This document shows positions 16,881 through 54,718 of a DNA stretch of 64,000 nucleotides, in pieces (within the stretch, counting starts at the first letter, position 1; each line of letters begins with the position of its first letter). The translations under genes were made by a program, and so were the position numbers. The DNA lies in the NCBI GenBank assembly GCA_947561715.1, contig OX387197.1, positions 5,151,001 through 5,215,000 on the forward strand. Direction: 5' to 3'. The stretch comes from Ascidia mentula. Lineage: Eukaryota > Chordata > Ascidiacea > Phlebobranchia > Ascidiidae. The notes under the pieces were generated by a model. That model ran no database searches. It was not told where the DNA came from and saw only the letters and a list, made by a program, of their open reading frames with translations.

Positions 16881-17001
16881 TCACAGCAACCTTTGCAAAA
16901 CGGTTTGCCTTCTGTTGCGTACCATTGTGCCACGGCAAAGCGATGCATTCAAAAGTTCGTCAAGGCCCTCAAAAAGTTTGTAAAATTTGCTTCGTCGGTT
17001 G

Positions 17002-19215
17002 CTAAACGCATTTGTAATACATTTTAACGTATTTGAAGGTTCCATAACAAGGATCAGTGAAAATGGTGTTGCTGGCAAGAATAGTGCAGGAATTTCGACC
17101 GTCACAAGTTGATTTTAGACGATTGAGTGACCCACTTGCAAAGCAGTTTACAGTCAAAATGTAGCGGCTTGGACATCTGTGAGAGAAAAAGAACATTTCT
17201 AAAGGATTGCTGTTCCATGTTTCATTCTCCAACCAAGAAATCAACATCAATTTCATGGTAACGGTGCTTACGTGGTGTTGTCATTTCTGCCGTAAAATCC
17301 ATCAACCACCGCGATTGTGCGATTTTCTGGGCACTGAATTGATTCAGTGGAGCTTTCGCACACAACTATCACTGGAATACCTGAAGTGTAATTGTTGATG
17401 ATATTTATGTACAAATTGTAAAATCAAAATTAAGTGTATATTAAACCGTCAGTTTTACTTTCAAATTATGTTAGATTTACACTTAGGTGGCTGACAAGCA
17501 TAGTGCTGAAGAAAAACTTAAACAAAACTATGTATGAATCATTGGTTGTCAAAAAAAAATTTTCTTAATTTTTAAGAATTTAATTTTCACAATTACGTTC
17601 CTGTCAGACATCAGTTCTATGGTAAGCTTTACAACGGCGCATTGTCGCGGTGTGTGTTTAGGATTATAATGTTTATTAAAGTACAACATTAAACGATCAT
17701 TTTCAACATTAATTCCTAAAGATTAAAGTCATGCATTGGTTCGGACACTAGTACCTTGGTCACAGTTGGTTCCAGTGAATAGTTGTGTGCAAATGCACGA
17801 GTAACCTCCCAGGAGGTCGACGCAAGTTCCATTGTTATGGCAGGGGTTACCAAAACTGCAGGCGTTTATATCTGAAAATACTGGGGTACTAAATCACATC
17901 GTCAAACGTATCTTGCCGATTATCAAATTTTGCGATACGTTTCTGGAATTGCACATAAAGGAAATTGACGTTTACCTGAAAACGTAAACAACGAGCTTGC
18001 TGTGCACTCATTTACCACCGTATCACGTTCAACGTTAATGTTGCTTCCATTTGTATACTTGTACATCGTTACAAGCCCACCTTTACCTGTTAGCACAAAC
18101 ATAGTTAAAGAATGAAAAGCTCGTCTGGCATAAGAAAAACTTGTTTGTTCGACGTTTCTATTAATGGTGTTCCCCCCCTCCCCGCTTCTTAGCTTGTGTT
18201 GTTTCTTTCGCCCCTTTTTTGCCTTTTTTGCCTGTTTGCTTTATGCGCGCGTGACTATTTATCGCCGTGTGGGCGTTTTTTTACTTCATTATCCTGATGA
18301 AGGTTTGTTGTATAACAAACGAAACGTCGAACAAACAAGTTTTTCGTTTGCCAGACGAGCTTTTCATTACTAAATAGTATGCCTGGCAGCGTTAACAACA
18401 AACTATAGTTAAAGAAACTTGTTAAAGAAGAGCAGCGATCACCCAAAAATCGTTATGATATTCTGAAAAGTTTTACAAAACAAATGACATTAGCTTCATC
18501 CTGAAAGATCAATAAAGTAAATATATGATGTATTTTGATACTGACCAGAAATTAGTCCAGCTTTTGATGCAGCGGCACATATTGAACTATTTACATGATA
18601 AGCGTTGGTTCCGCATGGGTACATTTGACCTTGACATCCAGGTGGACAGTTGACCTTCGTGATGGGATACTGTGTGTTTCCATCGGTCGAACAACTTACT
18701 GGAGTCAAAAGAAATTTAAAACAACTGTACTTCACATAAATCGACATTACTTACTTTCAAATGAGTAGGACTGCTCAGCAACTACACAGGACGAACTGCT
18801 AGTCACACCGTTTTGTACATTTCCGACCATATGCGCGTTGTTTGTCGTTTTGAACACTTCAATTAACCCACCTGACGCTGCGAACGATGAATGTGATGAA
18901 TTAAAGCAACTACTAGCATCAAGAATAAACATCCTACATTTTTTAGAACTAATAATATTACACTCTTAACATTGTACCGTCGATAAATTGTTCCTTTATA
19001 GCCGCCAGACAAATGGGTCCTTCAGTGTAGACACCTTCACCACACAACGTAGAGTGTTCCTTCAGGCAGTAAGGCGGACATATGAGCTTTGAGATTGAGT
19101 GGTTGAGTGCAGAAAATGGAGTCTCACAAGTTATGGTTGGACAAATAGACTGACCATAGTGTGGTGAAAGTATTCCAAGCAAAAGGAAGTTTGCAATCGG
19201 CCATGATCTGGGCAT
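17002..19215 (-). CDS. A1: secreted LCCL-LCCL-EGF-rhamnose-binding lectin protein
   Basis: Seven exons: 19215-18978, 18871-18755, 18698-18546, 18086-17976, 17871-17755, 17380-17272, 17176-17002; all phases fit, 339 aa. A signal peptide ([16 protein letters not shown]...) is followed by LCCL 1 (about 24-118), whose core is [14 protein letters not shown] then [13 protein letters not shown] 2 (about 121-206) has [12 protein letters not shown] then [17 protein letters not shown]. The EGF domain (207-245) starts [11 protein letters not shown] and has six cysteines. The terminal domain (about 250-339) is a SUEL/rhamnose-binding lectin: VVCESS, GFYGRND, CDGRNSC and [14 protein letters not shown], which are the YGR and DPC motifs. 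I used the ATG nearest the signal peptide. LCCL and lectin domains bind microbial or egg-coat glycans in other proteins; the role here is inferred. It is divergent from B1. Confidence 0.87.
18113..18404. mobile_element. 292-bp inserted element with long terminal hairpin arms, 12-bp TSD
   Basis: Lies in A1 intron 3 and is absent at the same place in A2 and A3. ATAGTTAAAGAA is duplicated at 18101-18112 and 18405-18416. Segments 18111-18158 and 18321-18368 are near-perfect inverted repeats (about 48 bp, containing CGACGTTTC / GAAACGTCG). After the second arm comes a tail with GCCTGGCAGCGTTAACAACA, also found alone near 58.34 kb. The variable-length TSD plus a recurrent 3' tail resembles a retroposed SINE more than a DNA-transposon MITE; both are possible. 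Confidence 0.75.
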
Positions 19216-21768
19216 TGTAAGAAAAGAATTGTTTCCAAAAAAACAAACCTTGAAACGAAAATACAACATGAATTTCTGGCTGTATTCGTTTTCTTTCTAA
19301 CACAAGGTAAACTTTTTTCTGAAAATCGGCAACTTGTAAGTTATTTTGGAACTTGCATGACATTTATAGCTGAAATGAGTAACATCAACAAATGGCTGCA
19401 ATATGCAGTGCTACTTCCTTCTTGCAACTTCTTACTTACTTGCAGAGTTGCCGGTGGACGTAGGTCACAAATTGATGACACACTGCCTTTTCGCATTCAC
19501 TTCCTTCTAATCATAATGCGGTAATTTACCTCAACCTCAATCTCAACCTCAACGTGACTCCGACAGTCCAACGTGAGAAAAGTCTGGAAATGACGTCAGA
19601 ACTACAAGATGTTTATCAAAAATTGGTACAAAAAACGCCTAGGTCATAAATATAGACAGAAAAACTAAAAAAACATTACCTACATTTACAACTTCCGATA
19701 TCCATATGCGTGAAACCCAACTATTCAGTTTGTGTCAATCCATTGCAACGCCACAATCTTTTTATGTGGCAAGGCCATTACTGCTGTTGCACAATGTGGA
19801 TCCAGTTGGTATAATATTACGTACTTAGAGTGTACAGTGATCGGCTACGCATTGCTGCAGTTAAAAGCAATAGATAAGTGACATAAAATGAACAATGCTT
19901 TCGAATTTGCCACTAAACGCATAAAACCTTTATGTAAACTAACAGTGGGCTACAACATTAACTCATGTCGAAATACCATGCGGTTTTGTCATGTTGGTTT
20001 ATCAACGGATAAAGCTTTTCCTCTTTGTTTTCAAGCTTGTCCCCCTTTTTTGAAAGCGAATTGATTGTAATGTTATTTTAATGAATGTATTGACGGCAAC
20101 TGACTTACCGTTAAGCAAAATAGCAGCCAACTGAACAATTATATATCACTTAATCAGCGGGTTTCCACTGACATTCACAACAGCGACCACAGAGCGTTTT
20201 TTTTATTTGCAGTTCAGGCAATTTATTGTGGTTTCTGACTTTCAGGTCACGTTACTATGCAAATAACATTTATAGATCGAAAATAAACTTACTTCACAAC
20301 AAATTTTTGAGCACGTTTGTTTGTTTGTTTGTTAAACCGCTCGGCATTTGTCACAGCCGTTGGAAATCAGATTAATTAAAATGCACTTGCTTTGGTTTGG
20401 TTGGTTACAACTTTAAATTGAGAGCATGGCCTTCTTTGCCAAACGCGGTGCATTGCATACTGTTTGTCGCGTACAGTTTGCTAAACATAAGTTACACCAC
20501 GCTTAATTGACTGAATTGTGGGAAATTCACCAAAACCGTAGCGGATTTCTTTATGCAGGTAAGAGCTGTTTTGATTGAGGGAAAAGGTTAACGCCATCGA
20601 CATGAAATATGTCAGAGGCAGAAGAGCCGCATAAGGATCCTGTGCTGGGGATTTAAGACCCCTGTTACAAATGGACGAAAGACAAGTTTAATGTCACCAG
20701 TGGTGGAAAGTTTAGGATTCCATTTATATTTTGTTGATTAGTTCAGCACTCTAGCCGATATCATTCTATAAAACTAGGCGAAATACTTCACCAATAATGT
20801 ACATATTGTCTACTCGTTTAAATGTACCAACTTTTTAACGAAAATATTCCAATGGCGCCTTATCTCAGTCTACGCATCACTATAAGTAAGGATCACTGTT
20901 TCTGACTCCCATGTAAACATCTATGTTATAGGAAAGTTGTTTTTTGGTGCGGAAGCAAGGAGATTTCCAGCTGTGTTAGTATCCTGGCTGATAGGGGAGA
21001 CCGGGGATAGCTCGGACGGTTTTGGGAAAATCGCTCATATTTTTTTTAAATTATGAACCACATTCCTAAATTTTATTTTGTTGTAAGTAGTAAAGCATTA
21101 CTCAAAAAACAAAGGGTTTTTCGTTCGTTTTAGCTCACTAAAAATGTTCATTCAGCCAATTTTTTAAACAGGTGTCAAATGTCCGAAGTCACCCCGGTAG
21201 CGGGGTAACATCGGACGTGGCTGGGGATATCTCGGACAGCAAGTTTTAACAGACGTTTTTTTTGTTTATTTAACAAATAACTGAAATCAAACTTGGCGTA
21301 ATATCAGCATTGGGGCATTAACCTTCCACATACAAATTGAAAAACTTGGTTTCACTGATAAATTGACTTTTTCGATTATAACATTTAAGCAGACATCATT
21401 TTATTCCAAAGTTCCTGTTAACGTTTGATGGAGACATAAAGCTTTTGTAATAGTGTCTTAACAACACCTAATTGTGACGTAAAATACCTGGTCCGAGGTA
21501 TCCCCGTGTCCGAGGTATCCCCGGTCTCCCCTCTTTATCGAATATCGCGGAAGTGGTACGAACGCACGTACTATGGTGGCATGTAAGTGTACAGACTGTG
21601 GCGTGACCAACAATATTGCAGTCGCGGGAGCTTTTAGTCACGTAGGTTCTAATTTAGTTCCTCTTTTGTGATGCAGTAAGATTTTAGGTGTTCGTTTGGT
21701 TTGAAGGCAGATTAACACATGAGGAAAAAGTTTCAGTGGAGCACAACCCGTTTGTTTGTTGCTGCAAT
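19216..21768. promoter_or_regulatory. divergent A1/B1 intergenic region, candidate shared promoter
   Basis: Separates the start codons of A1 (-) and B1 (+), so regulatory sites for both may sit here. Much of it recurs upstream of B2 (26.72-28.59 kb) and, inverted, between B3 and A3 (42.0-43.2 kb, about 0.9 kb shorter). It contains a 539-bp inserted element at 20994-21532 and a (GTTT)n run at about 20316-20334. No specific motif was identified. Confidence 0.4.
20994..21532. mobile_element. 539-bp MITE-like element with 25-bp terminal inverted repeats
   Basis: Ends are AGGGGAGACCGGGGATAGC(TCGGAC) at 20994-21018 and its near-perfect inverse at 21508-21532, with one mismatch. A second internal copy of the end motif sits at about 21491-21505, and related GTCCGA/CCCCGG motifs at about 21181-21240. 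The element is present upstream of B1 only; upstream of B2 and B3 the flanking sequence is continuous, giving an empty site. No ORF of note, so it is non-autonomous. The superfamily was not assigned. Confidence 0.8.
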
Positions 21769-24700
21769 ATGTGGAAAGAGGTGTTGATATGTTTAATGCT
21801 CGTTCACATCAACCTCGCAATGCAAGGTAAAGTAATTATAGCCATGGCACTGTTATGTATGTTTTATGCTTCCTATACCATCTATTGTTTGATATGTTCA
21901 TGTGGTAATCTAGCGCAGGGCATCCCAAACTATTTACTCGCGACCCCCTTTTAATCTGGTGAAATTTTGCCATGTTTGTTTGACAGCAATAATTGGATAT
22001 TTTATTGCAATACGCAATTGTAACGAAATGACTGAAACATTCTTGGGAGTAGCGTACTTTACAAACATTATTTACTATTTCCATGTAGACAACTAAATGT
22101 GGTTCTTTGTGTGGGATTAAATCTTGGCAAACAAAAAATTACGGCGTCTAACTTGAGTGGGATATTGCACGATTACAATCTAGCAATGTAGGGTAGGTTA
22201 TAAGCAGTGGTGGATTCAGCCTGTTCGCACCGTGTGAACCGGTTCTAGGTTCTTGGAATTTAATGACCTACGTGAACCGGTTGTTAACAACAAAAAGTGT
22301 AGGCCCATGTTTCACTTCGAACATTGTAATCCCGCGGTTACTATGACATGCTGCTAGTGAGAGAACCGGTTGCTGAAATACTTGAATCCCACCACTTAAT
22401 TCTTATAAGGCAAAAACTACAAAGCTGTGGTGTATGTTAGGTCATTCGAAGGGTGGCAGGCTTACGTAATTGATTTACAATAGGTAAGTAGGCAAGCAGG
22501 AAGTAAGCTAACAAAGATTTATTCCTAGTTACGTGCGACACCAACTTCTCGCAACTTAACCACTCAATCACAGCCGTAATTTGTCCACCGAAATGTTGGA
22601 CGCAGTCCTCAGATCTGTGTGGAAGTGGAGTTTATTCCAGAGGGCGAATATGCCTGGCTGCGATGCAAGATCAACGCATTGATGGTATCCTGTTTTCTTG
22701 TTTATTCAATCACAGAATTACAAAATCTTGTCATTTCGATCAAACATGTAACAACAGTGACATTCGAAGTTAGTAACCTAATTGCATCGAACAAAACAAA
22801 AGTGTTTACTGCAGCTTTAGTGACTATGAGGAGTTTCCGAAAAATTCCTGAAAAACTGGATGTAATTTGAGATTATTGTTACAACTGAGTTACAACTTTC
22901 CATGTATACCTATGCCTGGTTAATTTTTTTTTCAATATGGAACCAAATAGTTTCAGCTCTTTTATTTCAGATTCAGGAGGTCCAGTAACAATCTACAAGA
23001 CAGATAATGCTGGAAAATATGTCGGAGCAAGGAAAGACGGAGTTATGAGCAAAACGTGCGCTACGCACAGTACCGGATACTCTTTTGCCAGTACGCAAAT
23101 AACAACATATATCTCTACCAAGAAACATTCCTATTCCCTATCGCCCTTCTGTTTACCCACTCCAACATCTCTATCACTTTTCGGCGAGCTGTAGGCTTGT
23201 TTTCTACACAACATGTTAAAGTTTTCGGTCATTTTTTTTGTACGAAAAAAACGAACATTTTTTTCTTGTTGACTTTTGCAGTGACTTGCTCTACGACTGG
23301 TGAAGCAGAGTTTCCTATTAGTCAAGTGATCTGTCCCTCTGGGTGCCATGGTTACGTCAAGTCATGCGGAACGAGCATGTATTACGTCAACAGCTCTGTT
23401 TGCGCGGCCGCAATAAAGGAAGGCTTATTATCAAACGGTGACATATTGGGCCATAAATTTAATCCTTTCGATTAGTTTTTTTTGCATTACAGAACAAAAT
23501 AACTAAAGAACGTGCATGTTGTTACAGTTACATGTTATTTAGCGTTTTAAAGGTCGTTGTAACAAAAAAAACTTGTGCACAGGCAACGGTGGAGCCCTAA
23601 ATTTCTACAAATACACAAACGGAACTAATGTCGATCTAGGGACATCAGCCAACTTTCCAAACCCTTGTAAGAAGGCCGGAACTTGGTTTACGTTTAAAGG
23701 CAAGTAAAGCCATATATTTATATATGTATGTACATATATCTTCATTACGCTTAATTGCGATACCGTGTTTGTTTTAACCAGTATAATCAGTTTAGGAACG
23801 AACAAGTCTCTCCGCTTAATTAAAACATAAATCTAAGTTAATATTTTGTGTCAGAAGGACAGTCGTGTTGAATGACATCATATCTTGCGCCAACATCAGC
23901 ATAATATGTAAAATATTGTATGTATAACGGTAATCTTTCTCAAGGCTCGTAGGACCTGCTTAAAACCAGCAGGGTATGTATGCCTACAATAAAACCGTTA
24001 AGTCGATAAAAAGAAAGTCCTTCACGCAACAAGTATTTCAAGCATACATACTCTCGTTTAACCACACACAAAAGCCATCATAGAAATCACACGCAACCAC
24101 TGGAGGCGTAAGAGATATGACGATAAACAAATATGTAACAAATGGAGAATTTGTTACCAGACTTGGACGAATGTTCTCTGACCAATCCCTGTAAAAACAA
24201 CGGCAAATGCATCAACTTGTTGGCCGATTACGCGTGCGAATGCCCTCGGGGAACGACTGGGAAAGATTGCTCATCAGGTAACAGAGTAAGAATTTAGCGC
24301 AAAAAGCTTTATCAAAGATCTTTCTTGTTAAGTGTGCAATCGTTACCTTGGATTGAAGGACTGGAGTATTCCGGACAGCGCCCTGTCAGCATCTTCTAAA
24401 TTTGGAAGCTCCCCAGAACACGCGGCCAAATGGGGGAGACTTGACAATCCAGGAACGGCGACCACGACTAGAACAAACTTCGGTGGCTGGGCATCCAAAT
24501 ACCGTAGGTGGAACGCGTAAACCCATATATCGATATAGAATAGCCACGCCACGTGGTTTCATCATACGTTTACGTTGTTTAATTTAGCGGGATTAGACAA
24601 CTTATTGCACGTCTCACAAAACCATGATACCATTAATATTTTTTAAAATTTCCGTATTTTGTTGCATATAAAATGTTTCTACAAAGCATAAATCTTCCAT

Positions 24701-25547
24701 TGTTGCTTATGAACGACTAGTTTCTACGTCATAATCAGGAAATAACTAATTTTAACAAACAAGACAAGATCGTAGTGCATACTTCACATGTCTGTAGGCC
24801 TATATAAGAACCCCTCCCTAGAGACCAAAACTAAGGTTCGCTGCTTTTTAGGTTTAAAACCGAATAAATCTTTTATGAAGCCTGTGATTCCAACTCTGCA
24901 TTTATCTTTTCAAGCCCAACCCATCTTTTCATTCATAGTTCGTTATAATCAGTGTTTTACACTCGCTGTCGCACTAACATTTAAAGTCTGAATCGGGGCC
25001 TATGTAAGTTTTTTTTGTAGCTCAATTTACGTCTGTACAACGGCGAAATCATATTCCGCAGAAAGAGCCGGTGAATGGATCCAAGTCGTCTTAAACACAA
25101 CCACGTCGATAGGTGGCGTCGTAACACAAGGTCGTGGAGACGGCAGGGCTGCACAGTGGGTAACATCTTACAAAATCTCGTACATGGGACCTACAGACAC
25201 AACGTGGAGGAACGTGACCGACAATCAAGGCGCAGACGTGGTAAGTCTGCTTGGTATAGGTTATCATAATGCTACATCGACGTGTTGTACATCTAATAAA
25301 TAAAAGCAGTATTGTAGCGTCGATATTTGTCTTTTGAATTGCTTTTTTTGCACTGAATTGTACTAAAGTGACCGATGTATTGGTTTTAAATTGCAAGCGT
25401 ATTCGACAGGTGTTTTCTGGAAATAACGACACACAAACTGCAGTGACCCAAATATTTCCACACGCGATTGAAGCTGACAAATTGCGTTTGGTGGTTTTGT
25501 CTTGGAAGTACAATATTTTTCTTCGCCACGAATATCTCACATGCTAA
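21769..25547 (+). CDS. B1: secreted LCCL-LCCL-EGF-discoidin (F5/8C) protein
   Basis: Nine exons: 21769-21826, 22529-22684, 22977-23090, 23282-23437, 23583-23699, 24161-24277, 24333-24507, 25021-25240, 25410-25547; phases join to 416 aa. Exon 1 encodes the signal peptide ([19 protein letters not shown]). LCCL 1 (about 20-109) shows [18 protein letters not shown] 2 (112-200) shows [20 protein letters not shown]. The EGF (201-239) begins [11 protein letters not shown], a calcium-binding type. The discoidin domain (241-416) has [49 protein letters not shown] and a final LRHEYLTC. Intron 5 has a GC donor (AAAG/GCAAGT). The exon 7 donor (TAG/GTGGAA) is weak but is the only one that keeps frame; unspliced it stops five codons later. 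Discoidin domains bind glycans or phospholipids. Function here is inferred as extracellular recognition. Confidence 0.85.
22205..22397. mobile_element. hAT-like MITE in B1 intron 1
   Basis: Left end CAGTGGTGGATTCA and right end TTGAATCCCACCACTT form an imperfect terminal inverted repeat typical of small hAT derivatives. Internal ACCGGTT motifs repeat. Related copies lie in B2 (about 28.96-29.05 kb, truncated, and about 29.68-29.86 kb) and inverted in B3 (about 41.39-41.57 kb), so insertion came before the B duplications. Confidence 0.55.
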
Positions 25548-29247: not shown

Positions 29248-32200
29248 ATGTGGAAAGAAGTGTCGATATGTTTAATGCTCGTTCACATCAACCTCGCAAT
29301 GCAAGGTAAAGTAATTATGGCCATGGCACTGTTATGTATGTTTTATGCTTCCTATACCATGTAGTGTTTGATATGTTCATGTGGTAATCTAGCGCAGGGC
29401 ATCCCAAGCTATTTACTCGCGACCCCCTTTCATTCTGGTGAAATTTTGCCATGTTTGTTTGACAGCAATAATTGAATATTTTACTCGCAACAGGCAATTG
29501 TAACGAAAGGACTGAAACTTTCTTGGGAGTACGTTCTAAACATTATACTATTTTCATGTAGACAACTAATTGTGGTTCTTTGTGCGGCATTGAATCTTGG
29601 CAATCAAAAAAATATGGCGCTTAACTTGTGTAAAATATTTCACGACGACAATCTCGCAATGTAGGGTAGGTTATAAGCAGCGTTGGATTCAGCCTGTTCG
29701 CACCGTGTGAACCGGTTCTAGGTTCTTGGAATTTAATGGTTGTTAACAACAAAAAGTGTAGGCCCATGTTTCACTTCGAACATTGTAATCCCGCGGTTAC
29801 TATGACATGCTGCTTGTGAGAGAACCGGTTGCTAAAATACTAAAATCCCACCACTTGTTATAAAGCAAAACTACAAAGCTGTGGTGCATGTTAGGTCATT
29901 CGAAGAGTGGCAGGCTTACGTAATTGATTTACAATAGGTAAGTAGGCAAGCAGGAAGTAAGCTGACAAAGATTTATTCCTAGTTACGTGCGACACCAAAT
30001 TCTCGCAACTTAACCACTCAATCACAACCGTAATTTGTCCACCGAAATGTTGGACGCAGTCCTCAGATCTGTGTGGAAGTGGAGTTTATTCCAGTGGGCG
30101 AATATGCCTGGCTGCGATGCAAGATCAACGCATTGATGGTACCCTGTTTTCTTGTTTATTCAATCATAAAATTAAAAACCTTGTCATTTCGATCAAACAT
30201 GTAACAACAGTGACATTCGAAGTTAGTAACCTAATTGCATCGAACAAAACAAAAGTGTTTTCTGCAGCTTTAGTGACTATGAGGAGTTTCCGAAAAATTC
30301 CTGAAAAACTGGATGCAATTTGAGATTATTGTTACAACTGAGTTACAACTTTCCATGTATACAACTGGCCCATGCATGGTTATTTTTTTTCAATATGGAA
30401 CCAAATAGTTTCAGCTCTTTCATTTCAGATTCAGGAGGTCCAGTAACAATCTACAAGACAGATAATGCTGGAAAATATGTCGGAGCAAGAAAAGACGGAG
30501 TTATGAGCAAAACGTGCGCTACGCACAGTACCGGATACTCTTTTGACAGTACGCAAATAACAACATATATCTCTACCAAGAAACATTCCTATTCCCTATA
30601 GGCCTTCTGTTTACTCATTCCAACATCTCTATCACTTTTTGGCGAGCTGTAGGCTTGTTTTCTACATAACATGTTAAAGTTTTCGGTCATTTTTTTGTTC
30701 GAAAAAACGGACATTTTTTTCTTGTTGACTTTTGCAGTGACTTGTTCTGCGACTGGTGAAGCAGAGTTTCCTATTAGTCAAGTGATCTGTCCCTCTGGGT
30801 GCCATGGTTACGTCAAGTCATGCGGAACGAGCATGTATTACGTCAACAGCTCTGTGTGCGCGGCCGCAATAAAGGAAGGCTTATTATTAAACGGTGACAT
30901 ATTGGGCCATAAATTTAATCCTTTCGATTAGTTTTTTTTGCATTACAGAACAAAATAACTAAAGAACGTGCATGTTGTTACAGTTACAAGTTATTTAGCG
31001 TTTTAAAGGTCGTTGTAACAAAAAAAACTTGTGCACAGGCAACGGTGGAGCCCTTAATTTCTACAAATACACAAACGGAGCTAATGTCGATGTAGGGACG
31101 GCAGCCAACTTTCCAAACCCTTGTAAGAAGGCCGGAACTTGGTTTACGTTTAAAGGCAAGTAAAGCCATATATTTATATATGTATGTACATATATCTTCA
31201 TTACGCTTAATTGCGATACCGTGTTTGTTTTAACCAGTATAATCAGTTTAGGAACGAACAAGTCTCTCCGCTTAATTAAAACATAAATCTAAGTTAGTTT
31301 TTGTGTCAGAAGGACAGTTGTGTTGAATGACATCATATCTTGCGCCAACAGCAGCATAATATGTGAAATAATGTATGCATAGCGTTCATCTATCAACAGC
31401 AGCATAATATGTGAAATAATGTATGCATAGCGTTCATCTATCTTAAGGTTCGTAGGACCTGCTTGAAACCAGCAGGGTATGTATGACTACAATAAAACCG
31501 TTAAGTCGATAAAAAGTAAGTCCTTCACGCAACAAGTATTTCAAGCATACATACTCTCGTTTAACCACACACAAAAGCCACCATAGAAATCACACGCAAC
31601 CACTGGAGGCGTAAGAGATATGACGATAAACAAATATGTAACAAATGGAGAATTTGTTACCAGACTTGGACGAATGTTCTCTGACCAATCCCTGTAAAAA
31701 CAACGGCAAATGCATCAACTTGTTGGCCGATTACGCGTGCGAATGCCCTCGGGGAACGACTGGGAAAGATTGCTCATCAGGTAACAGAGTAAGAATTTAG
31801 CGCAAAAAGCTTTATCAAAGATCTTTCTTGTTAAGTGTGCAATCGTTACCTTGGATTGAAGGACTGGAGTATTCCGGACAGCGCCCTGTCAGCATCTTCT
31901 AAATATGGAAGCGCCTCAAAACACTTGGCCAAATGGGGGAGACTTGACAATCCAGGAACGACGACCACGACTAGAACAAACTTCGGTGGCTGGGCATCCA
32001 AGTTCCGTAGGTGGAACGCGTAAACCCATATATCGATATAGAACAGCCACGCCACGTGGTTTCATCATACGTTTACGTTGTTTAATTTAGCGGGATTAGA
32101 CAACTTATTGCACGTCTCACAAAACCATGATATCATTAATATTTTTTAAAATTTCCGTATTTTGTTGCATATAAAATGTTTCTATAAAGCATAAATCTTC

Positions 32201-34404: not shown

Positions 34405-34475
34405 ATGCTCAGATATCTGCCGATTGCAAACTTCCTTTTGCTTGTAATACTTTCACCAAACTATGGTCAGTCTTT
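34405..34475 (+). pseudogene. A'': truncated type-A exon 1, cut in the signal peptide
   Basis: Starts [16 protein letters not shown] as in A' and A2 but breaks at about 34475, just after the codons for GQS. From there the DNA is a type-A lectin exon in the opposite orientation, and the fused frame stops at 34533. It marks the inner end of the left inverted-repeat arm. Confidence 0.8.
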
Positions 34476-35521
34476 AATTCAGTGGAGCTTTCGCACACAA
34501 CCAGCATTGGAATACCTGAAGTGTAATTGTTGATTATATTTATACAAGTTGTAAAATCAAAATTAAGTGCTATTATATCAAACCGTCAGTTTTACTTTCA
34601 AATTATGTTAGATTTGCACTTAGGTGGGTGACAAGCATAGTGCTGAAGAAAAACTGAAACAAAACTATGTATGTATCATTGGTTGTCAAAAAAGATTTTC
34701 ACATTTACGTTCTTGTTAGACATCAGTTCTATGATTAGCTTTACAACGGCGCATTGTCGCGGTGTGTGTTGAGGATCATAATGTTTATTACAGTACAACA
34801 TTATTCGATCATTTTCAACATTATTTCCCTAAAGGCTATAGTCATGCATTGGTTCGGACACTAGTACCTTGGTCACAATTGGTTCCAGTGAATAGTTATG
34901 TGCAAATACACGAGTAACCTCCCAGGAGGTCAACGCAAGTTTCATTGTTATGGCAGGGGTTACCAAAACTGCAGGCATTTATATCTGAAAATACTGGGCT
35001 ACTAAATCACATCGTCAGACGTATCTTGCACATTGTCAAATTTTGCGATACGTTTCTAGAATTGCATTTCAAGGAAATTGACGTTTACCTGAAAACGTAA
35101 ACAATGAGCTTGCTGTGCACTTATTCACAACTGAATCACGTTCAATGTTAATGTTGCTTCCATTTGTATACTTGTACATCGTTACAAGCCCATCTTTACC
35201 TGTTAGTACAAACATGGTGAAAGAAACTTGTTAGAGAAGAGCAGCGATCACCCAAAATCACTGTGAGATTCTCAAAAACTTTTACCTGACACACGACATC
35301 AACTTTCAAAGCGGTTTCAACCAAAAAACTTGACAAAGAGTAAATGTATGACACATTTTGAAACTTACCAGAAATTAGCCCAGCTTTTCATGCAGCAGCA
35401 CATATCGAACTATTAACATGATAAGCGTTGGTTCCGCATGGGAAAATTTGACTTTGACATCCAAGTGGACAGTTGACCTTCGTGATGGGATACTGAGTGT
35501 TTCCGTCAGTCCAACAACTTA
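34475..35521 (-). pseudogene. A2': decayed type-A copy, exons 3-5 plus fragment of exon 6
   Basis: Exon-like blocks on the minus strand: 35521-35369 (LCCL 2, first half), 35199-35089 (LCCL 2, second half), 34984-34868 (EGF) and 34515-34475 (first 41 bp of the lectin exon, cut by the rearrangement junction). The first block has an in-frame TGA where A2 has TCA (AAA/TGA/KAG context), and the EGF block has TAA where A1 has CAA in the TQLF stretch. There are no exons 1-2 and no exon 7. Splice sites are mostly preserved, so decay is recent. It lies directly downstream of A2. Confidence 0.85.
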
Positions 35522-35711
35522 CTGAAATCACAAAAAATTTCAAACAACTCCACTTCACATAAATTGACTTTAATTAGAGTAGGTCTGCTCAGTAACTGTA
35601 CAAAAGGAACATTTTTACTTCTTAAACAATATTATCACGAAAAATAGAAACATTGGATGTTTTTTAACATTCTAAAAAACCGAACGCTACAGCAAATAAT
35701 TTATTCGTTGG

Positions 35712-36884
35712 CTAATACGTACCTTGGTCACAATTGGTTCCAGTGAATAGTTGTGTGCAAATGCATGAGTAACCACCCAGGAGGTCAACGCAAGTTCCAT
35801 TGTTATGACAGGGGTTACCAAAAGTGCAGGCGTTTATATCTGAAAATACTGTGCTACTAAATCACATCGTCAAACGTATCTTGCACATTGCCAAATTTTG
35901 CTATACGTTTCTAGAATTGCCCATGAAATAAATTGAAGCTTACCTGAAAACGTAAACAACGAGCTTGCTGTGCACTCATTTACCAACGAATCACGTTCAA
36001 TGTAAACGTTGCTTTCATTTGTATACTTGTACATCGTTACAAGCCCACCTTTACCTACACAAACATAGTTAAAGAAACTTGTTAAAGAAGAGCAGCGATC
36101 ACCCAAAATCAACATGAGTTTTGAACAACTTTTACCTGAAACACGACATCAACTTTCAAAGCGGTTTCAACCAAATACCTTGACTTGGCCAAAGAGGAAA
36201 TGTATGATACATTTTGAAACTTACCAGAAATTAGTCCAGCTTTTGATGCAGCAGCACATATCGAACTATTAACATGATAAGCGTTGGTTCCGCATGGGAA
36301 AATTCGACCTTGACATCCAGGTGGACAGTTGACCTTCGTGATGGGATACTGAGTGTTTCCGTCGGTCGAACAACTTACTGGAATCAAAACAAATTTAAAA
36401 CAACTGTACTTCACATAAATTGACATTACTTACTTTCAAATGAGTAGGACTGCTCAGCAACTACACAGGACGAATTGCTGGTCACACCGTTTTGTACACT
36501 TCCGACCATATGCGCGTTGTTTGTTGTTTTGAACACTTCAATTAACCCACCTGACGCTGCAAACGATGAATTAAAGCAACTACTAGCATCAAGAATGAAC
36601 ATCCTACATATTTTACAACTAATAATATTACACTATAAACATCGACCGTCGATAAATTGTTCCTTTATAGCCGCCAGACAAATGGGTCCTTCAGAGTAGA
36701 CACCTTCACCACACAACGTAGAGTGTTCCTTCAAGCAGTCAGGCGGACATATCAGCTTTGAGATTGAGTGGTTTAGTGCAGAAAACGGAGTCTCACAAGT
36801 TATTGTTGGACAAAAAGACTGACCATAGTTTGGTGAAAGTATTACAAGCAAAAGGAAGTTTGCAATCGGCAGATATCTGAGCAT
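35712..36884 (-). CDS. A2: LCCL-LCCL-EGF protein lacking its lectin exons
   Basis: Exons 36884-36647, 36550-36434, 36377-36225, 36054-35944 and 35839-35723 match A1/A3 exons 1-5 in length and phase and are open. The signal peptide is [16 protein letters not shown]; the EGF domain is complete. Exons 6-7 (rhamnose-binding lectin) are missing: past the exon 5 donor is unrelated DNA and then the A2' pseudo-copy. If intron 5 is retained, translation adds three residues and stops at TAG 35714-35712, giving a secreted 248-aa lectin-less protein. The exon 1 donor (GACG/GTCGAT) is weaker than in the paralogs, and the exon 4 acceptor is TAG instead of CAG. It is either a truncated functional gene or an early pseudogene. 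Confidence 0.65.
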
Positions 36885-37808: not shown

Positions 37809-38224
37809 AGATATATGACTCCCATATTAGATAAAGGCCCAACTTTTTTCTCCTGCCCAAAATCTACTCAACCCACCTGCATTTTATTATAGAAAACAGC
37901 TATGAGGCGAAATCGAAATGTCAAAGTAACTTAAAGCCATATTTGAAATGTAATACTATTGAATGTTCGAATTCATATAAATTAAGCTAATTTTGCATAC
38001 CTGACAACTAATGTCCTTACACAGATTTTTAAACAAAAATATTCACTTGGTCGAAGATCAAATGCCAAGCGCCCATACGTATTGCGCAGCACAGAGGAAA
38101 TGCATTAAGAAAGAACTTTATATTATTATGGAAACAATCAAAGAAAGCAAAAAGATGTAGTTTTAACAAATTTACATCAAAATAAAATTGTCTTCTCCTT
38201 TTGAATTTATTACCAATGCTTGTT

Positions 38225-41200
38225 TTAGCATGTGAGATATTCGTGGCGAAGAAAAATATTGTTCTTCCAAGACAAAACCACCAGACGCAATTTTACAGCT
38301 TCAATCGCGTGTGGAAATATTTGGGTCACTGCAGTTTGTGTGTCTTTATTTCCAGAAAACACCTGTCAAACACGCTTGCAATTTGAAACCAATACATCGG
38401 TCACTTTTGTACAATTCAGTGCAAAAAAAGCAATGCAAAAGACAAATGTCGACGCTACAATACTGCTTTGGCAACATTTTTCTATTAGATAGACACCACG
38501 TCGATGTAGCACTATGATAACTTATACCAAGTATGCTTACCACGTCTGCGCCTTGCTTGTCGGCCACGTTCCTCCACGTTGTGTCTGTAGGTCCCATGTA
38601 CGAGATTTTGTAAGATGTTACCCACTGTGCAGCCCTGCCGTCTCCACGACCTTGTGTTATGACGCCATCTATCGACGTGGTTGTGTTTAAGACGACTTGG
38701 ATCCATTCACCGGCTCTTTCTGCGGAATATGATTTCGCCGTTGTACAGACGTAAATTGAGCTACAAAAAAAACTTACATAGGCCCCGATTCAGACTTTAA
38801 ATGTTAGTGCGGCAGCGAGTGTAAAACACTGATTATAACGAACTATGAATGAAAAGATGGGTTGGGCTTGAAAAGATAAATGCAGAGTTGGAATCACAGG
38901 CTTCATAAAAGATTTATTCGGTTTTAAACCTAAAAAGCAGCGAAGCGAGTTCTTCTTAGTTTTGGTTTTCAGGGAGGGGTTCTTATATAGGCCTACAGAC
39001 ATGTGAAGTATGCACTACGATCCATGTCTTGTTTGTTAAAATTAGTTATTGCCCGATTATAACGTAAAAACTAGTCGTTTATAAGCAACAATGGAAGATT
39101 TATGCTTTATAGAAACATTTTATATGCAACAAAATACGGAAATTTTAAAAAATATTAATGATATCATGGTTTTGTGTGACGTGCAATAAGTTGTCTAATC
39201 CCGCTAAATTAAACAACGTAAACGTATGATGAAACCACGTGGCGTGGCTATTCTATATCGATATATGAGTTTACGCGTTCCACCTACGGAAATTGGATGC
39301 CCAGCCACCGAAGTTTGTTCTAGTCGTGGTCGTCGTTCCTGGATTGTCAAGTCTCCCCCATTTGGCCGCGTGTTTTGGGGAGTTTCCATATTTAGAAGAT
39401 GCTGACAGGGCGCTGTCCGGAATACTCCAGTCCTTCAATCCAAGGTAACGATTGCACACTTAACAAGAAAGATCGGTCCTTTGATGAAGCTTTTTGCGCT
39501 AAATTCTTACTCTGTTACCTGATGAGCAATCTTTCCCAGTCGTTCCCCGAGGGCATTGGCACGCGTAATCGGCCAACAAGTTGATGCAATTGCCGTTGTT
39601 TTTACAGGGATTGGTCAGAGAACATTCGTCCAAGTCTGATAACAAATTCTCCATTTGTTACACTTTTTTGTCGTCATATCTCTTACGCCTCCAGAGGTTG
39701 CGTGTGATTTCTATGGTGGCTTTTGTGTGTGGTTAAACGAGAGTATGTATGCTTGAAATACTTGTTGCGTGAAGGACTTACTTTTTATCGACTTAACGGT
39801 TTTATTGTAGGCATACCCTACTGGTTTCAAGCACGTCCTACGAGCCTTTCACGAGAAAGATTACCGTTATACATACATTATTTCACATATTATGCTGCTG
39901 TTGGCGCAAGGTATGATTTCATTCAACACAACTGTCCTTCTGACACAAAATATTAACTTAGATTTATGTTTTAATTAAGCGGAGAGACTTGTTCGTTCCT
40001 AAACTGATTATACTGGTTAAAACAAACACGGTATCGCAATTAAGCGTAATGAAGATATATGTACATACATATATAAATATATGGCTTTACTTGCCTTTAA
40101 ACGTAAACCAAGTTCCGGCCTTCTTACAAGGGTTTGGAAAGTTGGATGCTGTCCCTACATCGACATTAGCTCCGTTTGTGTATTTGTAGAAATTTAGGGC
40201 TCCACCGTTGCCTGCGCGCAAGGTTTTTTTGTTACAACGACCTTTAAAACGCTAAATGACATGTTACTGTAACAACATGAACGTTCTTTAGTTATTTTGT
40301 TCTGTAATGCAAAAAAACTAATCGAAAGGATTAAATTTATGGCCCAATATGTCACCGTTTAATAATAAGCCTTCCTTTATTGCGGCCGCGCACACAGAGC
40401 TGTTGACGTAATACATGCTCGTTCCGCATGACTTGACGTAACCATGGCACCCAGAGGGACAGATCACTTGACTAATAGGAAACTCTGCTTCACCAGTCGT
40501 AGAACAAGTCACTGCAAAAGTCAACAAGAAAAAAATGTCCGTTTTTTCGTACAAAAAAATGACCGAAAACTTTAACATGTTATGTAGAAAACAAGCCTAC
40601 AGCTCGCGAAAAAGTGATAGAGATGTTGGAGTGGGTAAACAGAAGGGCGATAGGGAATAGGAATGTTTCTTGGTAGAGATATATGTTGTTATTTGCGTAC
40701 TGGCAAAAGAGTATCCGATACTGTGCGTAGCGCACGTTTTGCTCATAACTCCGTCTTTCCTTGCTCCGACATATTTTCCAGCATTATCTGTCTTGTATAT
40801 TGTTACTGGACCTCCTGAATCTGAAATGAAAGAGCTGAAACTATTTGGTTCCATATTGAAAAAGTCAATTGTATACATGGAAAGTTGTAACTCAGTTGTA
40901 ACAATAATCTCAAATTGCATCCAGTTTTTCAGGAATTTTTCGGAAACTCCTCATAGTCACTAAAGCTGCAGTAAACACTTTTGTTTTGTTCAATGCAATC
41001 AGATTACTAACTTCGAATGTCACTGTTGTTACATGTTTGACCGAAATAAAAAGATTTTGTAATTCTATGATTGAATAAACAAGAAAACAGGGTACCATCA
41101 ATGCGTTGATCTTGCATCGCAGCCAGGCATATTCGCCCTCTGGAATAAACTCCACTTCCACACAGATCTGAGGACTGCGTCCAACATTTCGGTGGACAAA

Positions 41201-41996
41201 TTACGGTTGTGATTGAGTGGTTAAGTTGCGAGAAGTTGGTGTCGCACGTAACTAGGAATAAATCTTTGTCAGCTTACTTCCTGCTTGCCTACTTACCTAT
41301 TGTAAATCAATTACGTAAGCCTGCCACTCTTCGAATGACCTAACATACACCACAGCTTTGTAGTTTTTGCCTTATAAGAATTAAGTGGTGGGATTCAAGT
41401 ATTTCAGCAACCGGTTCTCTCACTAGCAGCATGTCATAGTAACCGCGGGATTACAATGTTCGAAGTGAAACATGGGCCTACACTTTTTGTTGTTAACAAC
41501 CATTAAATTCCAAGAACCTAGAACCGGTTCACACGGTGCGAACAGGCTGAATCCACCGCTGCTTATAACCTACCCTACATTGCGAGATTGTCGTCGTGAA
41601 ATATTTTACATTTTACAAGTTAAGCGCCATATTTTTTTGATTGCCAAGATTCAATGCCGCACAAAGAACCACAATTAGTTGTCTACATGAAAATAGTATA
41701 ATGTTTAGAACGTACTCCCAAGAAAGTTTCAGTCCTTTCGTTACAATTGCCTGTTGCGAGTAAAATATTCAATTATTGCTGTCAAACAAACATGGCAAAA
41801 TTTCACCAGAATAAAATGGGGTCGCGAGTAAATAGCTTGGGATGCCCTACGCTAGATTACCACATGAACATATCAAACACTACATGGTATAGGAATCATA
41901 AAACATACATAACAGTGCCATGGCCATAATTACTTTACCTTGCATTGCGAGGTTGATGTGAACGAGCATTAAACATATCAACACCTCTTTCCACAT
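38225..41996 (-). CDS. B3: secreted LCCL-LCCL-EGF-discoidin protein
   Basis: Nine exons: 41996-41939, 41251-41096, 40814-40701, 40511-40356, 40211-40095, 39635-39519, 39458-39284, 38760-38541, 38362-38225; 416 aa, open throughout. Domains are as in B1/B2. EGF variants include NGNCI and CQCP where B1/B2 have NGKCI and CECP. The GC donor after exon 5 is kept. The gene is divergent to A3, with about 1.2 kb between start codons, mirroring A1/B1. Similarity to B2 is very high in both exons and introns, suggesting recent duplication or arm-to-arm gene conversion. Confidence 0.85.
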
Positions 41997-43236: not shown

Positions 43237-45124
43237 ATGCCCAGATCATGGCCGATTGCAAATTTTCTTTTGCTTGGAATACTTTCACCACACTATGGCC
43301 AGTCTTTTTGTCCAACAATAACTTGTGAGACTCCGTTTTCTGCACTGAACCACTCAATCTCAAAGCTGATATGTCCGCCTGACTGCCTGAAGGAACACTC
43401 TACGTTGTGTGGTGAAGGTGTCTACTCTGAAGGACCCATTTGTCTGGCGGCTATAAAGGAACAATTTATCGACGGTACAATGTTAAGAGTGTAATATTAT
43501 TAGTTGTAAAAAATGTAGGATGTTTATTCTTGATGCTAGTAGTTGCTTTAATTCATCGCATTCATCGTTCGCAGCGTCAGGTGGGTTAATTGAAGTGTTC
43601 AAAACGACAAACAACCCGCATATGTTCGAAAGTGTACTAAACGGTGTGACCAGCAGTTCGTCCTGTGTAGTTGCTGAGCAGTCCTACTCATTTGAATGTA
43701 AGTAATGTCAATTTATGTGAAGTATAGTTGTTTTAAATTTCTTTTGACTCCAGTAAGTTGTTCGACCGATGGAAACACTCAGTATCCAATCACAGAGGTC
43801 AACTGTTCACCTGGATGTCAAGGTCAAATTTACCCATGCGGAACCAACGCTTATCATGTTAATAGTTCAATATGTGCCGCTGCATCAAAAGCTGGACCAA
43901 TTTCTGGTAAGTTTTAAAATGTATCATACATTTACTCTTTGCCCAAGTCAAGTTATTTGGTTGAAACCGCTTTTAAAGTTGATGTCGTTTGTTTTTGTAA
44001 AAGTTTTTGAGAATCTCATAGTGATTTTTGGTGATCGCTGCTCTTCTTCAACAAGTTTCTTGTGCTAACAGGTAAAGGTTGGCTTGTAACGATGTACAAG
44101 TATACAAATGGAAGCAACATTAACATTGAACGTGATACGGTGGTGAATGAGTGCACAGCAAGCTCGTTGTTTACGTTTTCAGGTAAACGTCAATTTCCTT
44201 TATGTGCAATTCTAGAAACGTCTCGCAAAATTTGATAATCGGCAAGATACGTTTGACGATGTGATTTAGTAGCCCAGTATTTTCAGATATAAACGCTTGC
44301 AGTTTTGGTAACCCCTGCCATAACAATGGAACTTGCGTTGACCTCCTGGGAGGTTACTCGTGCATTTGCACACAACTATTCACTGGAACTAATTGTGACC
44401 AAGGTACTAGTGTCCGAACCAATGCATGACTTTAATCTTTAGGAAATAATGTTGAAAATTATCGTATAATGTTGTACTGTAATAAACATTATGATCCTCA
44501 ACACACACCGCGACAATGCGCCGTTGTAAAGCTTTTCATAGAACGTATGTCTAACGAGAGCGTAATCTTTTTTGACAACCAATCATACATACATAGTTTT
44601 GTTTTAGTTTTTCTTCAGCATTATGCTTGTCAGCCACCTAAGTGCAAATCTAACATAATTTGAAAGTAAAACTGACGGTTTGATATAATAACACTTAATT
44701 TTGATTTTATAACTTGTATAAATATAATCAACAATTACACTTCAGGTATTCCAGTGATAGTTGTGTGCGAAAGCTCCACTGAATTAATCCAGTGCCAAGA
44801 AGATCGTACAATCGCGGTGGTTGATGGATTTTACGGCAGAAATTACAACACCACGTAAGCACTGTTACCATGAAACTAATGTTGATTGCTTGGTTGGAGA
44901 ATGAAACATGGAACAGCAATCCTTTAGAAATGTTCTTTGTCTCTCACAGATGTCCAAGCCCCTCCATTTCGACGGTAAACTGCTTTGCAAGTGGGTCACT
45001 CAATCGTCTAAAATCAACTTGTGACGGTCGAAATTCCTGCACTATTCTTGCCAACAACACCATTTTCACTGATCCTTGTTATGGAACCTTCAAATACGTT
45101 AAAATGTATTACAAATGCGTTTAG
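43237..45124 (+). CDS. A3: secreted LCCL-LCCL-EGF-rhamnose-binding lectin protein
   Basis: Seven exons: 43237-43474, 43581-43697, 43754-43906, 44072-44182, 44287-44403, 44746-44854, 44950-45124; each the same length as in A1, total 339 aa, no breaks. Signal peptide [16 protein letters not shown], two LCCL domains, EGF ([11 protein letters not shown]), then the lectin with [17 protein letters not shown] and [14 protein letters not shown]. Compared with A1, several changes fall in the glycan-contact motif region (RNY for RND) and in LCCL 2 (NCSPGC for NCPPGC). It lacks the 292-bp hairpin element of A1 intron 3. Confidence 0.87.
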
Positions 45125-47081: not shown

Positions 47082-49707
47082 ATGACAGTTAAATCGAAGT
47101 GGAATCTTGTTTTCGTATTACTTGGATTTTTTCCACCATTCAACCAAGCCTTGTGTCCAACTGTAACGTGTGACACGGAGTTTTCTGCACTGAATTATTC
47201 CATCACACAAGTCATATGTCCTACTAACTGCTGGAAGCAACACTCTACGTTGTGTGGTGTCGGTGTCTACTCTGCGGGCCCAGTTTGCCTCGCAGCTATG
47301 CAGGAACAGCTGATTGATGGTAAGTTGGACGGAGCAATTTACCGTAAACCTGGGATGCACAACACAGAGCACGCGTGCCAAGTTGTTAGTTCAAAAATGG
47401 CACGCCTACTATTTTTGACAACTTGTTGGAAAATATATTCGAAAGTTTGTCCTTAATAAATATTGGTTCAGATCAAACTATATCTTCCTTTGCCAACATG
47501 TTGCCTAAACAAGTCATACATTTATATCATATATAATTTGGGATGGGACAAGTTAGAGTATACAACAACTATGGCATGCGTAACCGTTTGAGCTTGGCAT
47601 CCTTTTCGTGGACAGTAAGGTTTGATATGCTTATACACTTACCAATGTATGCTTGTACACATACCAATGTATGCTTATACACATATTAATGTATGCTTAT
47701 ACACATACCAATGTATGCTTATACACATATCAATGTATGCTTATACACATATCAATGTATGCTTTAACACATACCAATACATATGCTTATACACATACCA
47801 ATGCGAATAATCTTCTTGTACGGAAATTACAGTATCAGGTGGATTAGTCCATGTGTATAAAACGTTGAACAGTTCACATGTGGTTGAAAGCACTCGGAAT
47901 GGGGTCACCAGTCAGTCATGTGCACGTCGTGACCGACACTATTCCTTTAAGAGTAAGAGACGTACGATGTATTATAACTTGGATTTGTCCAAATTTTTCA
48001 AATCTTTTTTCGTTTGAAGTGACTTGCTCAACAGACGGCGACACTCAGTATCCCATCACAGAGGTCAACTGTCCACCTGGATGTCAAGGTCAAACTTATC
48101 CATGCGGAACCAACGCCTATCACGTGAATAGTTCAGTTTGTGCTGCCGCCAGACAATCTGGACTTAAATCACGAAGTATGTTTGGACTCAGTTAACACAA
48201 ACGAGATAAACAAAATTTCCTACGACTAACTTAAAGAAGATTCATTTGTCAAGAAATGTTTTATTATCATTATTTGCTCAGTTTGTGTGACACCATCATT
48301 CCCAAGATATTGACATACGTAGAGCAAAGTTACTTTTTAATTACTTTGTTACAGGTCGTGTAACCGTATACAAGTACACGAACGGAAGCAACATTTACAT
48401 CGCAAACTCCACGAATGAGTGCTCAGCAAGATCATGGTATGTTTTCTCAGGTAAACGCATATTCACTTGATTCACTCCATAAAATGTTTCAACAACTCAA
48501 AAATTACCTTTGCAACCCATTTAATTTTCAGATATAAATGCGTGCAGTTATGGTAATCCCTGTCAAAACCAAGGAACTTGCGTTGATCTTCTGGGCGGCT
48601 ACGCGTGTATTTGCTCTAAACGATTCACAGGCGCCTTGTGTGAACAAGGTGATGGGTTTTAAACGAAAAAGTTCAGATAAAAGCAATATATGTATTACTT
48701 GATACGAAAATTTGTTTATTCAAATTTGTAAGTTGGATTTTAGATTTAATTGATTAACACTTTTGTGCAACACACTAGAATTAGTTATCCTGTAATTGAA
48801 TAACCAAAATATAAATAAACATTAAATCAAATCAACGTCAGTATGTACAAAACCATGAAATCTTCAGACCGAAATTTCAAGTATATTTTTGTATCATCTT
48901 TGTTGCCAAGCGCGCAGCACAAAAGTGTTATTATCTTGGAAGTTTCTTTTGTTTTTGATATTTGTACGCACTTTTTCAGCTATCTCGCTAAAAGTTGTAT
49001 GCGAATACCAGACTGCCTTGGTTCAGTGCCCAGGAAGTCTCAAAATATCGGTGATTGATGGCTTCTACGGCAGGAATGATTACAGCACGTAAGAAGTTCA
49101 TTTTAAGTTTGAAAGGTCACCAACACGCTTTGCTTCTGTCCTTGCGAGCAATTTTATATTTGCCTTAACTAAAGACAAAAAACAATTAAGCTAAAGACAG
49201 CGTTTTGAGGTGTACGTCGCGTTTCAAAACGCATCGACATTTTTCCAACTTAACGCTAGGGACTGCAAATGTTTTGATGTCATGGCAGGTCGTTATTTGA
49301 CGTCAGTGATCAATATCCTTGGCCTTTGTACCCACAGCCGCCCCGACACGAACCCAACTAAAGCGACTCGTAAATAAATCATTAAACGATATTTGAACCA
49401 TCATAGCAGATAACAAATGAGGTAATTCATCCAAATAGCTTCCACTAGCTTTCATAACGCAAACACATTGTGTCAAACCGCACACTTGATGTAAGTATAG
49501 GCGGGTTTTAACGTGAAATTTGTTGTTGATTTCAGATGTCCCGGCAATGTATTCACTCTTGACTGCGTTAGGGCTGGAACACTTACTACTCTCAAATCTA
49601 TTTGCGACGGTCAAAATTCGTGTACTTTAAGGGGCGACAATGGAGTCTTCGGTGATCCATGCCCACAAACCAACAAGTACATCAAAATGTACTACCAATG
49701 TGTGTAG
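47082..49707 (+). CDS. A4: diverged LCCL-LCCL-EGF-rhamnose-binding lectin protein
   Basis: Seven exons: 47082-47319, 47839-47952, 48020-48175, 48355-48450, 48532-48648, 48980-49088, 49536-49707; 333 aa with all phases matching the A1/A3 gene structure. Signal peptide MTVKSKWNLVFVLLGFF; LCCL 1 core CWKQHSTLCGVGVY; LCCL 2 CSTDGDTQYPIT...[33 protein letters not shown]; lectin domain VVCEYQTALVQC, GFYGRNDYSTC, CDGQNSC, GDPCPQTNKYIKMYYQC. Exon 4 is 15 bp shorter than in A1. It is clearly diverged from A1-A3 at the protein level and has no inverted partner, so it may be the older locus from which the cluster grew. AATAAA lies 11 bp after the stop (49718-49723). Confidence 0.87.
47626..47810 (+). 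repeat. 22-bp minisatellite in A4 intron 1
   Basis: About eight tandem copies of ATGCTTATACACATACCAATGT with CATATCAAT and CATATTAAT variants. It lies between exons 1 and 2 of A4. It gives open frames of repeated YTYQCML-type peptide in more than one frame, which are a by-product of the 22-bp unit and not a gene. Confidence 0.9.
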
Positions 49708-49717
49708 TTGATCTTGA

Positions 49718-49723
49718 AATAAA
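49718..49723 (+). terminator. polyadenylation signal AATAAA of A4
   Basis: Canonical hexamer just after the A4 stop codon at 49707, implying a very short 3' UTR unless a later site is used. Confidence 0.5.
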
Positions 49724-54707: not shown

Positions 54708-54718
54708 TATGACATTAT

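Follow-up and report, generated by a model that had tools for sequence, protein, structure and literature searches.

What kind of protein is encoded by neighbouring genes that share their first domains and differ in the last one? The question is raised by a stretch of chromosome 1 of the solitary sea squirt Ascidia mentula (C1:5,151,001-5,215,000, 64,000 nucleotides, called here the window; positions given without a contig name are counted from its first letter). Its loci carry a cassette of two LCCL domains and one EGF domain, LCCL-LCCL-EGF, followed by a SUEL (rhamnose-binding lectin) domain in the loci that we call A and by a discoidin (F5/8C) domain in those that we call B. The answer that we consider rather likely is that these genes encode secreted, opsonin-like recognition proteins, in which a constant cassette carries one exchangeable C-terminal recognition domain; an immune role is suggested by domain analogy. 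The published assembly, kaAscMent1.1, is reported to have nine chromosome-level scaffolds and a size of 197.0 Mb in 95 scaffolds (PMC11109543). The genome searched here amounts to 195.8 Mb in 79 contigs, slightly below the published size; small pieces seem to be missing or the version differs. Two matches to GH6 in it are in keeping with a tunicate genome.

Three of the A loci have an uninterrupted ATG-to-stop reading frame in their spliced models, in the order leader-LCCL-LCCL-EGF-SUEL. Gene A1 (17002..19215, minus strand) consists of exons 19215-18978, 18877-18755, 18698-18546, 18080-17976, 17871-17755, 17365-17272 and 17176-17002; gene A3 (43237..45124, plus strand) of exons 43237-43474, 43575-43697, 43754-43906, 44078-44168, 44273-44403, 44761-44854 and 44950-45124; and gene A4 (47082..49707, plus strand) of exons 47082-47319, 47833-47952, 48020-48175, 48355-48450, 48532-48648, 48995-49088 and 49536-49707. 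In each of them LCCL (two stretches), EGF and SUEL_Lectin are above the Pfam cut-offs, the last with E values of 1.8e-19, 2.8e-18 and 1.1e-16 in A1, A3 and A4, respectively, and the YGR, DPC and KY motifs are visible in the SUEL ends. In A1 and A4, all junctions from the first LCCL domain to the terminal domain are in phase 1. The model of A3 differs from these two in having a phase 2 junction between LCCL2 and EGF, and the exact place of that junction is therefore unsure.

Eight exons were found in each of the three B genes, in the order LCCL-LCCL-EGF-F5/8C: B1 (22528..25547, plus strand; F5_F8_type_C E 4e-18), B2 (29982..33069, plus strand; LCCL E 5.5e-19, two stretches; F5_F8_type_C E 1.1e-18) and B3 (38225..41252, minus strand; F5_F8_type_C E 2.7e-18). 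Their spliced models contain no stops, LCCL (two stretches), EGF and F5_F8_type_C are above the Pfam cut-offs in all three, and from LCCL1 onwards to the terminal domain they have phase-1 junctions throughout. The intron that separates EGF from the first F5/8C exon is very short (B1 and B2, 55 bp; B3, 60 bp) and the reading phase is continuous, and the F5/8C end therefore belongs to the same gene as the cassette. It should be noted that the splice aligner used for all models admits GT-AG and GC-AG introns only and penalises stops; the 289 GT-AG and 7 GC-AG introns obtained are no independent evidence for the models, because no other kinds are admitted.

Direct and inverted duplicates revealed by self-comparison extend across 16.5-49 kb of the window. 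The largest joins segment 29097..34475 to an inverted copy at 36814-42151 (96.1% identity, 5.4 kb), and B3 sits within this inverted duplicate of the B2 block. One edge of it coincides with the truncation of the remaining A locus, A2 (34474..36884, minus strand), which has a leader, the two LCCL domains and EGF, followed by a further copy of LCCL2-EGF that an in-frame stop interrupts. The SUEL exon of A2 ends after about 9 residues at 34474, the duplication breakpoint. A2 is thus probably a broken gene that lost its lectin there, so that a terminal domain is found in six of the seven loci of the window. An eighth locus is an orphan A-type first exon (26384-26718, plus strand), encoding a leader and the first half of LCCL1, behind which no further A-type exons were found.

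These results bear out much of a preliminary description of the window. Two LCCL domains and an EGF domain, as it had proposed, are above the Pfam cut-offs in all six window genes scanned (six of six), and the exons that it had assigned to single genes do belong together, as the short introns and continuous phase of B1-B3 indicate. Its count of at least seven loci holds, with four A and three B, the orphan exon coming in addition. Its assignment of a terminal SUEL domain to A and of a discoidin domain to B is right for A1, A3, A4 and B1-B3 and fails for A2 alone, the SUEL exon of which is truncated. The signal peptide that it took to be shared has to be restricted: a hydrophobic leader is present at the start of the four A loci, and the B genes have candidate leader exons only.

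The cassette is not confined to the window. A six-frame search with A4 gave at least 143 matches to cassette exons elsewhere in the genome (121 of 1319 candidates scored). The set modelled, comprising the window and further loci, amounts to 35 cassette genes, a fragment at C1:4602144 being left out. Their terminal domains are of four types: F5/8C in 22 genes, fibrinogen-like in 7, SUEL in 3 and pentraxin in 2, with one gene, A2, having none. A single array at C1:4.607-4.662 Mb holds 14 of the 22 F5/8C-type genes. Eleven of the 35 models were scanned with Pfam (six of the seven window loci, A2 being left out, and five of the 28 outside the window), and in all 11 the result agreed with the terminal label, every model passing the cut-offs for LCCL (in two stretches), for EGF and for a single terminal domain; the labels of the remaining models come from tblastn with templates, at E values up to 0.05. 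Full models outside the window gave Fibrinogen_C at E 3.7e-49 and 9.7e-46 and Pentaxin at E 1.9e-13, and terminal fragments of three genes matched Fibrinogen_C and Pentaxin (E 7.2e-41, 1.2e-14 and 5.5e-15). Parts are missing from two of the fibrinogen-type models, one of which lies at the edge of the stretch analysed. Of the 34 models that have a terminal domain, 33 reach it from EGF through a phase-1 intron, the exception being a model without an EGF exon. This clean modular layout makes the family a good natural case of ongoing exon shuffling.

The four ends are not equally common on the cassette. Pentraxin domains gave 17 matches genome-wide (42 of 42 candidates scored), five of which follow cassette exons on the same strand, at a distance of up to about 2.2 kb, at C1:4.50-4.57 Mb, outside the 35 modelled genes. 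SUEL domains gave 77 (93 of 93 candidates scored), and among the cassettes listed only the three of the window are followed by one: the SUEL end is rare on LCCL-LCCL-EGF. As a possible further end, the C-type lectin domain was looked for, and none of the Lectin_C matches listed (150 of 770 candidates scored) fell inside the mapped cassette stretches.

Evidence that parts are exchanged between types comes from a fibrinogen-type gene, C1:4603225-4606689, with which the F5/8C array ends. In LCCL1 this gene shares 88-95% identity with six F5/8C genes of the adjoining array. In LCCL2 (91%) and EGF (87%) it resembles the fibrinogen-type gene C1:4295030, and the same LCCL2 is at most 59% identical to that of any F5/8C gene. 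The DNA tells the same: over 4606080-4607400 the identity to four F5/8C genes is 90-91%, with two more at 84-85% over shorter stretches, and 4604121-4606288 is 84-94% identical to the fibrinogen-type region at 4.297-4.301 Mb. Judged by these identities, the gene is a recombinant, composed of the 5' LCCL1 of a neighbouring F5/8C gene and of the LCCL2-EGF-fibrinogen part of another subtype. The junction lies at or near the first LCCL2 exon, because the identity switches there, both sources matching over the 208 bp of 4606080-4606288 that include this exon.

A second kind of exchange is suggested by the five F5/8C copies of subgroup II, in which the EGF-F5/8C half diverges by 0.2-3% per 200-bp window, versus about 3.5-6% in the LCCL half. 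Such a pattern would be expected if gene conversion had affected the 3' half alone. It is not found in the seven copies of subgroup I (3-5% in the F5/8C half, about 2-4% in the LCCL half). That many copies differ by only a few percent would also suit proteins of the extracellular matrix or tunic, in which the cassette and its lectin ends would glue cells to the polysaccharide matrix, copies being kept for dosage; LCCL, EGF and F5/8C are all domains known from matrix proteins. We regard this as improbable, since four lectin-type ends on one cassette, together with a recombinant gene, exceed the needs of dosage.

The cassettes were compared in a tree of 34 rows, the recombinant being left out. 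The pentraxin gene 3858294 is the sister of the fibrinogen-type gene 7252615 (support 99/98), and the SUEL cassettes group with F5/8C cassettes outside the window (support 89/91, not starred); the cassette of A4 is 69% identical to that of an F5/8C-type gene at C1:5.517 Mb. The cassette of the window's B genes forms a long separate branch beside the outgroup from contig C70, a placement that is unsure, the program warning that the join may be false. The preliminary description had read the pairing of A with B as the swap itself, and this part of it has to be abandoned: the A cassettes group with F5/8C genes elsewhere, and B forms a separate branch of unsure place. Its more general proposal, a modular and expanding set with a swapped end, is strengthened by the four terminal types, by recent duplications (the largest 5.4 kb, at 96% identity) and by the recombinant gene. 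Among the SUEL domains compared, a subset of the 77, the one closest to that of A4 (62% identity) belongs to a gene at C1:6.997 Mb that has four SUEL domains, of which it is the fourth. The fibrinogen-type gene mentioned above (C1:7252615-7257685) has two extra LCCL-EGF units preceding its terminal domain.

What the proteins might do can be approached through the relatives of their parts; the preliminary description had named immunity, gamete coats and allorecognition as plausible roles. Among solved structures, the SUEL end of A4 has matches to L-rhamnose-binding lectins (including 5h4s, E 3.2e-42), the F5/8C end of B2 to lactadherin and a fibrinogen-type end to ficolins. A pentraxin-type end, in which the GQEQD stretch is conserved, matches neuronal pentraxins, SAP and CRP. 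The first LCCL domain of A4 aligns to cochlin (1jbi, E 2.3e-5). The genes could also encode gamete-coat or self-incompatibility proteins, the ends of which would read polymorphic egg or sperm ligands, the family expanding under fertilisation conflict. The salmon lectins CSL2 and CSL3, which are of egg origin, are among the solved relatives of the SUEL end of A4. Ciona self-incompatibility uses a fibrinogen-like protein. LCCL proteins are also reported to act in the sexual stages of malaria parasites (PMC10892792). We nevertheless hold a gamete role to be unlikely, the pentraxin, ficolin-like and lactadherin-like ends being more typical of immune opsonins, as their matches and a review of tunicate immunity (PMC5465252) indicate.

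The reading as recognition proteins agrees with several published observations. Rhamnose-binding lectins and ficolins are listed among ascidian recognition molecules, with pentraxins reported in two genera (PMC5465252); the word 'LCCL' does not occur in that review. Both LCCL domains of CRISPLD2 are reported to bind lipid A (PMC10892792), and the LCCL domain of cochlin and akhirin to bind bacteria (PMC12839204). In this reading, an N-terminal cassette that stays constant, made of a leader, two LCCL domains and one EGF domain, is followed by an exchangeable end, SUEL, F5/8C, fibrinogen-like or pentraxin. The terminal domain may bind a microbial or altered-self glycan or phospholipid, and the LCCL pair lipid A, a bacterial surface or a glycosaminoglycan, so that the whole protein would be a soluble opsonin or agglutinin of the haemolymph or mucus. 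Related copies, recombining at their repeated exons and introns, would supply new combinations. The proteins are probably secreted, as the leader sequences, seen in the A loci only, suggest.

A number of observations weigh against this reading, and some of them would suit a family made mostly of decaying duplicates, in which a few genes would still work and many copies would be by-products of the instability of the region. In-frame stops are present in 4 of the 35 models, one of which (4640588) also has no EGF exon; since stops are penalised by the aligner, more of them could be hidden in the models. The ratio of nonsynonymous to synonymous substitutions (dN/dS, NG86 method) is 1.04-1.48 in B pairs, based on few changes, which also fits relaxed constraint. 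To these can be added the truncated A2 and the orphan exon at 26.4 kb. We consider general decay very improbable, however. The other 31 of the 35 models are stop-free, albeit with the penalty just mentioned, and dN/dS lies between 0.25 and 0.55 in the A pairs and the large F5/8C array (A1-A3, 0.39; pairs with A2, 0.34 and 0.37; A1-A4, 0.25; two F5/8C subgroups, 0.53 and 0.55 over 15 and 28 pairs). Even in the B genes the exons diverge less (0.017-0.028) than the introns and flanks (0.025-0.039).

Other points on the same side concern secretion and the history of the ends. The putative leader exons of the B genes (B1, 21769-21826, plus strand; B2, 29248-29305, plus strand; B3, 41939-41996, minus strand) come from a scan for a Met, a hydrophobic stretch and a phase-1 donor; their phase fits, and they are unproven candidates. 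A terminal domain evolving faster than the cassette appears as a weak, non-significant trend: dN/dS of the F5/8C core exceeds that of the cassette in all four groups (four of four), in 637-900 of 1000 bootstraps. A stronger form of this claim, obtained with whole terminal regions that contain less certain exons, weakened with the securely coding F5/8C core exons and was dropped. The last two exons of the recombinant gene are 70-75% identical to those of 4295030, one of them being closer (78%) to 7252615, so that the exact fibrinogen-type parent is not among the loci compared. Finally, a single group of all F5/8C cassettes is not rejected by the approximately unbiased (AU) test (p 0.087), which allows more than one direction and number of SUEL gains; a tree of 17 SUEL domains fits one gain or two (AU p 0.32 and 0.42).

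The same domains are found in other arrangements elsewhere in the genome. At C71:17631501-17635500, an LCCL-LCCL pair is followed by at least three EGF-like exons (by eye), no terminal domain being reached within these 4 kb. Dozens of LCCL half-domain exons on one strand, spaced by about 0.5-1.1 kb over about 58 kb (C72:5124980-5182581), suggest giant poly-LCCL genes, and about 40 LCCL exon matches, many with identical scores, form a regular tandem array with a period of about 1.07 kb at C69:1890517-1912016. Dozens of Fibrinogen_C matches stand in tandem over 1.1 Mb at C70:16876242-17970226, mostly on the minus strand. F5/8C, SUEL, partial LCCL and C-type lectin exons are clustered at C69:302223-315208 and, in the opposite orientation, at C69:674747-688241; these two loci probably represent a larger mosaic gene present twice.

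Within the window, the cluster is adjoined by a sulfotransferase gene (10732-12526, minus strand; Sulfotransfer_1 E 1e-6 over 10732-11190, no match over 12095-12523). The window also contains an ion channel exon, TRP-like by eye (8361-9257, plus strand; Ion_trans E 3.1e-16), a direct repeat of about 0.7 kb with 91% identity (12761-13456 and 13951-14664) and a non-long-terminal-repeat (non-LTR) retrotransposon at 50954-56119 on the minus strand (RVT_1 E 5.6e-35, endonuclease traces below cut-off), the upstream long frame of which has no Pfam match.

How does this family compare with known systems? The preliminary description knew of no family with these exact architectures, and indeed no description of an LCCL-LCCL-EGF-lectin family was found in the open-licence literature searched; no protein homologue of A4 was found at E <= 0.001 among 399 candidates, and A4 had no match in NCBIfam, a prokaryotic library. 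DCBLD1 and DCBLD2 have a single LCCL domain and a membrane anchor. LCCL together with F5/8C (discoidin) is described in DCBD1 (PMC3927609). Unlike the present genes, DCBLD has a CUB domain, for which no Pfam match was obtained in the 11 models. CRISPLD2 (Lgl1) is not known to have a lectin end. It resembles the family in being secreted, in having two LCCL domains and in binding the lipid A of lipopolysaccharide (PMC10892792); it differs by its SCP/CAP domain, without a Pfam match in the 11 models. Cochlin and akhirin share with the family an LCCL domain reported to bind bacteria and, unlike it, contain von Willebrand factor domains (PMC12839204), the 11 models giving no vWA match. In ficolins, a collagen-like stalk precedes the fibrinogen domain, and no collagen match was found in the 2 of the 7 fibrinogen-type models scanned. 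The defining domains not being matched, the family is therefore not DCBLD, CRISPLD, cochlin or ficolin. Rhamnose-binding lectins, including BsRBL of Botryllus, have the SUEL domain with its YGR, DPC and KY motifs and are not known to contain domains other than SUEL; here, one SUEL domain is added to LCCL-LCCL-EGF.

Two systems combine LCCL domains or a common N-terminal part with several kinds of end. In the CCp/LAP proteins of Plasmodium, LCCL is joined with discoidin, fibrinogen-related or pentraxin-like modules (PMC10892792), but these are proteins of a protist, in another order, and form a mosaic inside one protein instead of alternative ends on a constant cassette. The VIgL proteins of the snail Biomphalaria (FREP, CREP and GREP) are an immune family in which different C-terminal lectin domains are attached to the same N-terminal part (PMC10875847). 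That common part is described as one or two immunoglobulin superfamily (IgSF) domains (PMC10875847), unlike LCCL-LCCL-EGF, and the ends differ too, being here SUEL, F5/8C, fibrinogen-like or pentraxin. No domain of the Ig family was matched by Pfam in the 11 models, and the family of Ascidia mentula is therefore no VIgL member. Tunicates are close relatives of vertebrates and are not known to have antibody-type immunity. If our view of these genes as recognition proteins is true, a large family, arranged in tandem and recombining, would illustrate how secreted recognition can be diversified in a chordate that has no antibodies. By analogy, the best reading is that the family operates like the snail VIgL proteins, without Ig domains. 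Going further, and with rather less than even confidence, we propose that it may be the Ig-free counterpart of VIgL in a chordate, in which a constant, lipid-A-binding LCCL pair would be joined, by the phase-1 junction that the genes share, to one or another of four unrelated lectin folds. Clusters recombining internally and with each other would continue to yield new combinations and so give rise to recognition repertoires specific to the individual.

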